Shown: positions 31,266 to 53,658 of the stretch, one piece after another | Layout: every line of letters begins with the position of its first letter | Position numbering within the stretch: position 1 is the first letter of the stretch | NCBI RefSeq assembly: GCF_028290025.1 | Contig: NZ_JAQGKQ010000050.1 | Location: 1-64,000, forward strand | Reading direction: 5' to 3' | Length of the DNA stretch: 64,000 nt | From: Cypionkella sp. | GTDB lineage: Bacteria > Pseudomonadota > Alphaproteobacteria > Rhodobacterales > Rhodobacteraceae | Notes under the pieces: model-generated | Told to the model about the DNA's origin: nothing | What the model saw: the letters and a program-made list of their open reading frames with translations, nothing else | The model's database searches: none | Translations under genes and position numbers: made by a program

Positions 31266-31559
31266 TCACCGATTGCTGTCGATCCAGCGCGACAGCAACT
31301 GCCGGTCCCTAAAACATTCATCCGGCACCGCTCGACGTTTAAACCGCGCGATCTTTTCGGCAAACGCCACCTGCTTGGAACTCGGCCGAGGGTCAGGCTC
31401 CATCGGGCGCATCTCGGCCTGCGCGTCAATCCAGGCGCTTAAGCTGCGGCGATCCAACTGCACTTCCCACGGCAAATTAACGCCGTTGCGCTGCGCCAAT
31501 GATCGCGCGTAAGAAATCTGCCGTTCGGTCGCAGCAATGGCAAATGTGGTATCTTCCAT
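31266..31559 (-). CDS. Small SOS-boxed protein with a duplicated ~37-residue motif
   Basis: The 97-residue product (start MEDTTFAIAATERQ) contains two aligned repeats of equal length. The first runs from TERQISYARSLAQRNGV to LSAWIDAQ, the second from SSKQVAFAEKIARFKRR to LSRWIDSN. The shared pattern is xxRQxxxAxxIA...(D)RRxLSxWIDxx. I cannot assign a known function; similar short helical motifs are found in accessory domains of DNA-metabolism proteins. A LexA-type box lies 37 bp upstream of the ATG, so DNA-damage induction is likely. The longer track start at 31658 would place the box inside the gene, so the ATG at 31559 is preferred. Confidence 0.75.
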   Translation of the reverse strand: MEDTTFAIAATERQISYARSLAQRNGVNLPWEVQLDRRSLSAWIDAQAEMRPMEPDPRPSSKQVAFAEKIARFKRRAVPDECFRDRQLLSRWIDSNR

Positions 31560-31595
31560 AACGTCACCTCGGGATGGTTCTGTTGATGGAATATA

Positions 31596-31610
31596 GAACA
31601 TATAGGGAAC
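31596..31610 (-). promoter_or_regulatory. LexA (SOS) box of the alphaproteobacterial type
   Basis: The minus strand reads GTTC-CCTATAT-GTTC, an exact match to the GTTC-N7-GTTC operator of alphaproteobacterial LexA. It lies 37 bp upstream of the start of the small duplicated-motif gene, in promoter position. Confidence 0.75.
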
Positions 31611-31727
31611 AAAATCAACCGCGCTCACGCAAATGAGAACGAAGACCCCGAAATGCAAGCAACCGAGGCTTTAGGGCCCCGGTTGCGAAAACGTGTTAGT
31701 GGCGCGAGCGCCGAGCGGATCAGGCGC

Positions 31728-52404: not shown

Positions 52405-53658
52405 ATGACCAGCCTGTGCCGCGACTGTCTCACTCAATTTGAAGCCGGAGCCCGCTGTCCAAAGTGCCGCTCTCCGCGCCTGCTTGCCCACGGCGAGATG
52501 AATCAGCTTTCCATAGCCCACATGGATTGCGACGCCTTTTATGCCAGCGTCGAGAAACGCGACAACCCCGAGCTGCGCGACAAAGCCGTGATCGTCGGCG
52601 GCGGCACCCGAGGCGTCGTCTCAACCTGCTGCTACATCGCCCGCATCCATGGGGTGCGATCCGCGATGCCGATGTTTCAGGCGCTGAAACTGTGCCCTGA
52701 TGCCGTGGTGGTGAAGCCCCGAATGTCGGTCTACGTGGACGCCTCGCGCGCCATAAGGGCGATGATGGAGGCGCTGACTCCGGCCATCGAACCGCTATCT
52801 TTGGACGAGGCGTTCCTCGATCTCACCGGAACCGAACGCCTACACGGCGCACCCCCCGCCGTCGTGCTGGCAGGGCTGGTGAAACGGATGGAGGACGAAT
52901 TGGGACTGTCCGGCTCGGTCGGGCTGTCGCACAACAAGTTTCTCGCCAAAATCGCATCAGACCTCGACAAACCGCGCGGCTTCTCAATCATCGGACGCGC
53001 GGAAACCGAAGCATTCCTGCGCCCCAGATCGGTGCGGATCATCTGGGGCGTCGGCACCGCCGCGCAGGCATCGTTGGAGAAAGCCGGCATCCGCACCATC
53101 AGCGACCTGCTGCGCTGGGATCGCACCGATCTGACGGCGCGCTTCGGCAGCATGGGCGATCGGCTGTGGAATCTCGCACGCGGGCTTGATCAGCGCCGGG
53201 TGAACCGGGATGAAAAGCTGAAGTCGATCAGCAAAGAGACGACGTTCTTTGAGGATACCACCGATGCCGACCTGCTCGACGGCCATCTGTGGCGGCTGGC
53301 CGAGCAAGTCGCCGACCGCGCCAAGGCCAAAGGGTTGGCAGGCAAGACCGTGGCGCTGAAGCTGAAGCGCGCGGATTTCCAGCTGATCAGCCGCCGCCAT
53401 GCTTTGAGCGACCCCACCCAACTGACCGACCGCATCTATCGCGCCGCCCGCGCGATGTTCGATCAGGCGGGCAATCGCGGGCCGTTTCGCTTAATCGGTG
53501 TCGGCATCAGCGATCTGGCACCCGAGGCTGTGGCTGATCTGTCGGGCGATCTGCTTGACCCAACGGCGGGAAAACGCGCCGCAGCCGAGCGGGCAACCGA
53601 TGCAATCCGCGCCAGATTTGGCCGGGAGGCTATTATTAAAGGGCGAGCCTTGCGCTAG
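52405..53658 (+). CDS. dinB: DNA polymerase IV with N-terminal Cys-rich extension
   Basis: The 417-residue Y-family polymerase has an N-terminal CRDCLTQFEAGARCPKC segment (two CxxC pairs, likely a zinc ribbon), followed by the catalytic core: IAHMDCDAFYASVEKRDNPE, CYIARIHGVRSAMPMFQALK, PLSLDEAFLDLTGTERLHG, the thumb and the little-finger domain (SISKETTFFEDTTDADLLDG). It performs translesion synthesis. Classical DinB starts near MDCDAFYASVE, so the ribbon adds about 35 residues, a layout I associate with alphaproteobacterial DinB-like proteins. It lacks an obvious C-terminal beta-clamp motif. It is divergent from the mpg-type glycosylase gene. Confidence 0.9.
   Translation: MTSLCRDCLTQFEAGARCPKCRSPRLLAHGEMNQLSIAHMDCDAFYASVEKRDNPELRDKAVIVGGGTRGVVSTCCYIARIHGVRSAMPMFQALKLCPDAVVVKPRMSVYVDASRAIRAMMEALTPAIEPLSLDEAFLDLTGTERLHGAPPAVVLAGLVKRMEDELGLSGSVGLSHNKFLAKIASDLDKPRGFSIIGRAETEAFLRPRSVRIIWGVGTAAQASLEKAGIRTISDLLRWDRTDLTARFGSMGDRLWNLARGLDQRRVNRDEKLKSISKETTFFEDTTDADLLDGHLWRLAEQVADRAKAKGLAGKTVALKLKRADFQLISRRHALSDPTQLTDRIYRAARAMFDQAGNRGPFRLIGVGISDLAPEAVADLSGDLLDPTAGKRAAAERATDAIRARFGREAIIKGRALR

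Follow-up and report, generated by a model that had tools for sequence, protein, structure and literature searches.

The window, a 64-kb stretch of the Cypionkella sp. genome, contains a gene for a 97-aa protein that is preceded by a LexA box of the GTTC-N7-GTTC type, promoter hexamers and a ribosome-binding site (Table 1). The box, GTTCCCTATATGTTC, ends 36 nt 5' of the ATG and fills the 17-nt spacer between the two hexamers, directly 5' of the -10 element. The TTGATT-17-TATATT arrangement was the only promoter-like site that a promoter scan detected in the region. A search for exact GTTCN7GTTC returned one copy in the whole window, which is this box. The initial annotation had reported an exact alphaproteobacterial LexA box upstream of the ORF and none at dinB or mpg. 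Our analysis confirmed the box and placed it in the promoter spacer; candidate boxes upstream of dinB (52405-53658) had at least two mismatches, and the window in which GTTCCCTATATGTTC is the sole exact box covers mpg.

Table 1. Features of the 97-aa gene and its upstream region in the window.
Feature	Position	Strand	Remarks
97-aa ORF, stand-alone two-repeat protein	31266..31559	-	starts MEDTTFAIAA, ends WIDSNR, stop TGA
LexA box GTTCCCTATATGTTC (GTTC-N7-GTTC)	31596..31610	-	sole exact match in 64 kb; conserved in orthologues
-35 element TTGATT	31613..31618	-	promoter scan; TTGATT kept in 77 aligned orthologous promoters
-10 element TATATT	31590..31595	-	promoter scan; TATATT-like hexamer conserved in orthologues
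Ribosome-binding site GAGGTG	31565..31570	-	read directly off the sequence
Repeat 1, residues 11-47	31419..31529	-	predicted helix 12-25, short helix 31-34, helix 37-48
Repeat 2, residues 60-96	31272..31382	-	predicted helix 61-73, short helix 80-83, helix 86-96

The two halves of the protein aligned without gaps over 37 residues, with 12 identities and a BLOSUM62 score of 58. Among 2000 shuffled controls the mean score was -1.5 (sd 7.3) and the maximum 31, giving a z of about 8, so that the duplicated 37-residue motif proposed earlier stands. The protein has a pI of 9.6 (family median 10.2). Repeat 2 was more basic and more conserved than repeat 1 (mean majority-residue frequency of 0.81 vs 0.61); it carries a conserved KRR and the motif ECFRD..LMS.WID, and repeat 1 is nearly neutral. 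AlphaFold2 predicted an all-helical protein of two helix-short helix-helix units with a mean pLDDT of 88; because the pTM was 0.56, the mutual orientation of the two units is uncertain.

The description of the protein as uncharacterised also holds, since no significant family match was found in Pfam, NCBIfam or PHROGs; the PDB gave no significant match to the repeat protein by sequence or by fold. The Helicase associated domain HA (PF03457) was rejected at 14.2 bits (E = 0.056), under its curated cut-off of 28.4 bits, as were homeodomain and Red-beta matches, which lay under any threshold. A fold search of BFVD gave a match in Aeromonas phage 4L372XY (E = 8e-4). A profile scan of viral contigs gave no match, and the sole hits there (L063/L064) share 21 residues, probably by chance, in an unrelated-looking protein. 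Two large-ORF matches (L102, L103) were dropped as apparent antisense reading frames, and L240/L268 and L101, in which a repeat-like stretch lies within proteins of other kinds, were left out.

The box pattern by itself is common, with 94 exact copies of GTTCN7GTTC in the 4.3-Mb host genome, fewer than in a backward-read control. A single box is therefore weak evidence, and position and conservation carry the weight. The host genome (a draft, about 90% complete) encodes one LexA, and the lexA locus has an exact box, GTTCTGCCCGTGTTC, near the 5' end of the gene together with an overlapping one-mismatch box. Exact boxes were also present 5' of imuA, imuB, uvrA and genes for a UvrD-like helicase and splB-like and photolyase-like proteins, all named by reading their translations rather than by family search. 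The GTTC-N7-GTTC box class is real in the host genome. Two imuA-like and two imuB-like genes, all LexA-boxed, were seen (C57:457 and C53:7228; C33:38207 and C34:72), and the host apparently has two mutagenesis cassettes. A further box identical to GTTCCCTATATGTTC, at C52:13085-13099, has no obvious gene downstream.

Orthologues occur widely in Rhodobacteraceae, in many cases on conjugative plasmids. Matches to the 97-aa protein were found in 62 of 249 Rhodobacteraceae genomes, a few of them as longer ORFs, with identity falling to about 40% among orthologues. Stand-alone copies in a genome of another family (L288-L290 in G892) were put aside as probable contamination. An exact LexA box lay 5' of 65 of the 68 stand-alone genes, a set made up of the loci of the 62 genomes plus three plasmid loci, with the fragments and fusions L099-L103 omitted. 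Of the three exceptions, two (L036, L068) carry a box with a single mismatch, and the third, L069, differs at its 5' end. A separate genome scan, which shares organisms with the first set, gave an exact box at 77 of its 80 best loci and a one-mismatch box at two more; elsewhere in the 760 kb of that set there were 12 boxes. The background for both sets is about 0.001 per 130 nt. The promoter consensus of the orthologues was TTGATTTTGTTCN7GTTCTATATT. The box was kept in both subfamilies, one of plasmid type with proteins of about 97 aa, the other mostly chromosomal-looking with a longer N-terminus. The initial annotation had proposed LexA control and named loss of the box from orthologues as the result that would speak against it; the box was retained, and SOS control of the gene is strongly supported by this conservation in sequence. 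The dN/dS ratio ranged from 0.065 to 0.09 for the closest relatives and from 0.11 to 0.16 for more distant ones (dS being near saturation in the wider pairs), and by this comparison the protein is under purifying selection. In Cypionkella and Pseudorhodobacter the gene is flanked by ribH, rlmN and ialB, a shared synteny that identifies the window copy as an established chromosomal gene.

The repeat proved to be one that many type IA topoisomerases, encoded on plasmids and on chromosomes, carry at the C-terminus. Outside Rhodobacterales, nearly all strong matches found were C-termini of such enzymes, often plasmid-borne, from Variovorax, Xanthomonas, Campylobacter, Bradyrhizobium, Rhizobium, Thermovibrio and Methylobacterium. 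A repeat HMM built from the small proteins only detected 1-3 copies per tail, mostly 2-3, the best single copies reaching an E-value of 1e-19; when the small-protein and tail alignments were compared by hhalign, the probability was 99.8% (E = 1.2e-29). In one Rhodobacteraceae topoisomerase (L100), the final repeat is nearly identical to repeat 2 and keeps the ECFRDKGLMSRWIDS signature. A single-repeat profile, searched against 289 class and 299 phylum genomes, found mainly small proteins and repeat-bearing topoisomerases, the rest being a few small or weak ORFs without assignment. Homology of the 97-aa protein to the topoisomerase tails is thus well supported at the level of sequence. The enzymes, including one of phage Dfl-JY45 and those of Campylobacter plasmids, carry the same repeat at the C-terminus, usually in tandem, and many in Alphaproteobacteria are LexA-boxed like the window gene; the window protein differs in that it lacks Toprim and Topoisom_bac and, with no Pfam match above threshold, corresponds to the tail alone. 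In phage Dfl-JY45, the protein annotated as hypothetical at L228:2141-4288 is one of these type IA topoisomerases and resembles the window protein at its C-terminus. In the tra region of a Variovorax plasmid, a 280-aa 'DNA topoisomerase' (L217:4413-5255) comprises only the end of the catalytic domain and two repeats, and is possibly a second liberation of the tail.

The repeat-bearing topoisomerases share the LexA switch. In the alphaproteobacterial clade with the signature M..IITEK.SQAKD, 15 of 18 genes had an exact box, located at -58 to -72 relative to the start; in the remaining three (L256, L259, L261) a one-mismatch box lies at or near that site. In the clade with FFFEKPSAMR, the exact box was present in six of seven genes; it lay at -50 to -99 and could point either way. 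Fourteen genomes with exactly two type IA topoisomerases served as a control, several of them from the same genera and therefore not all independent: an exact box was found at 12 of the 14 repeat-bearing genes (10 scored automatically, and L317 and L318, the same genes as L282 and L279, whose starts had been mis-called in that run) but at none of the 14 topA genes. Across the 60 kb of the 14 topA loci, neither an exact box nor the repeat occurred. No box was found at the non-alphaproteobacterial plasmid genes, at the large chromosomal genes for proteins of 1.3 kaa (L260, L262, L263), or at L100, L221, L284 and L286. Other Alphaproteobacteria (L305-L318, L219, L224 and L225) have a second type IA topoisomerase whose tail repeats are helical and whose gene is mostly LexA-boxed. 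By its sequence, this second enzyme appears to be an unrecognised SOS topoisomerase. Since whole tail-bearing enzymes and the small protein have this switch in common, the two apparently belong to a branch of the DNA-damage response that has gone unrecognised.

We consider that the 97-aa protein is an SOS-induced, free-standing topoisomerase tail that serves as a small, basic DNA-binding accessory, with a probability of about 0.5. LexA bound in the promoter spacer would repress the gene, and RecA-ssDNA filaments would bring about LexA cleavage, upon which the protein would accumulate. It would then go where the topoisomerase tail goes, that is, to single-stranded, gapped or recombining DNA, where it may protect or bridge the DNA or help a repair or topoisomerase complex work. 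Promoter architecture, box conservation, tail homology and the boxes on full-length topoisomerases are established by sequence; that the gene is induced, that its product binds DNA and where it acts are inferred. DNA binding is considered most likely given what other topoisomerase tails do and given the charge; because the repeat is similar neither to a solved structure nor to a family model, the case draws on analogy with topoisomerase repeats of another, beta fold together with charge, and the near-neutrality of repeat 1 counts against it. The host genome, within its incompleteness, has a single type IA topoisomerase, which is without the repeat, and therefore the protein in this strain does not simply assist a tail-bearing enzyme. 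The presence of the box and the sequence would both be accounted for if the gene had arisen from a LexA-controlled topoisomerase gene through an internal deletion that spared promoter and tail. The loss of all catalytic domains with retention of tail and SOS promoter would also suit a dominant-negative regulator, which would titrate substrate from topoisomerases or recombination enzymes during SOS and slow replication or recombination. Such a role is very improbable, however, as few genomes with the small protein also have a repeat-bearing topoisomerase as a competitor, and the host has none.

The main rival of DNA binding is a protein-binding adaptor, in which the repeats would dock on SSB, RecA, a RecQ/RecG-type helicase or the sliding clamp, and the stand-alone form would recruit the partner or compete with the topoisomerase tail. 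A motif as specific as ECFRD..LMS.WID is more usual where a protein is contacted than where DNA is bound generically; proteins, too, are bound by topoisomerase tails (PMC10969213), and among the weak, non-significant Foldseek matches was the C-terminal domain of Red-beta in complex with the SSB tail. A few chromosomal orthologues (L087, L089, L093) have QLSLF, QHSLF and QPSLF near the N-terminus, resembling the sliding-clamp motif. This clamp-like motif is, however, missing from the window protein and most orthologues, no consistently adjacent partner gene was found across both subfamilies, and the strong basic charge also argues against an adaptor, which we regard as unlikely. The initial suggestion of a new damage-response factor, perhaps a small DNA- or protein-binding adaptor, remains plausible and is still the best functional class, but it had missed the identity of the repeat as a type IA topoisomerase C-terminal repeat.

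Among the closest known counterparts are Topo_C_Rpt (PF13368) and Topo_C_ZnRpt / zf-C4_Topoisom (PF01396), which are likewise small repeats in tandem at the C-terminus of type IA topoisomerases and bind nucleic acids. The C-terminal repeats known from topoisomerases bind ssDNA (PMC10969213), and the PF13368 and PF01396 repeats form a four-stranded beta-sheet, whereas the window repeat, of about 37 residues, is predicted to be all-helical and is matched by neither model. The accessible parts of two surveys of topoisomerase tails (PMC9369019, PMC10969213) describe beta-type and zinc repeats only. If our assignment is true, it adds an all-helical kind of tail to those in these parts of the surveys. 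LexA binding to the promoter of a type IA topoisomerase gene, topB of Vibrio parahaemolyticus, was shown by gel shift (PMC3323433); that gene belongs to another bacterial class and has another LexA site, and no stand-alone tail is described there. The gene goes unmentioned in the open-access main text available of PMC6473078, on LexA in Dinoroseobacter, and of PMC3323433, the multi-chromosome SOS survey.

Tentatively, we suggest that Alphaproteobacteria have an overlooked SOS branch built on one helical module. In Rhizobiales-type genomes the module would belong to an SOS-induced second type IA topoisomerase; in Rhodobacteraceae it would stand alone, as a damage effector that recognises a particular structure arising from damage or recombination and does so without topoisomerase activity. 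If true, the SOS response of a major group of environmental bacteria would gain a widespread unnamed gene family, and that of many Alphaproteobacteria would be predicted to include a second type IA topoisomerase. The small protein would be a simple handle on what the topoisomerase tail recognises. Small SOS-induced proteins of Alphaproteobacteria include Caulobacter SidA, and known proteins of this type are small, LexA-controlled, stand-alone membrane division inhibitors. The window protein is likewise small, LexA-controlled and stand-alone, but is set apart by its description as a basic helical repeat protein.

The plasmid-borne copies raise the alternative of a plasmid establishment factor, induced by the SOS response to entering single-stranded DNA and aiding plasmid survival, with the chromosomal copies domesticated. 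Conjugative plasmids made up 121 of the 218 plasmid records with a match (a count that takes in topoisomerase matches), the plasmid copies often adjoin, divergently, an ArdC anti-restriction / ParB / large helicase-like cluster, and entry of IncC plasmids triggers SOS according to the title of PMC9927553. Against such a role, which we judge improbable, many orthologues are chromosomal, including that of the window and apparently most of the second subfamily, and keep the box, and the ribH/rlmN/ialB synteny is conserved around the window copy. At plasmid orthologue loci such as L227, the divergent neighbours are an unnamed gene of ~160 aa, ArdC, a large helicase-like protein and ParB. Near another orthologue, on an Octadecabacter plasmid, the product of L226:11417-12769 is annotated as 'type VI secretion protein ImpB' but more likely represents a UmuC/ImpB-type polymerase.
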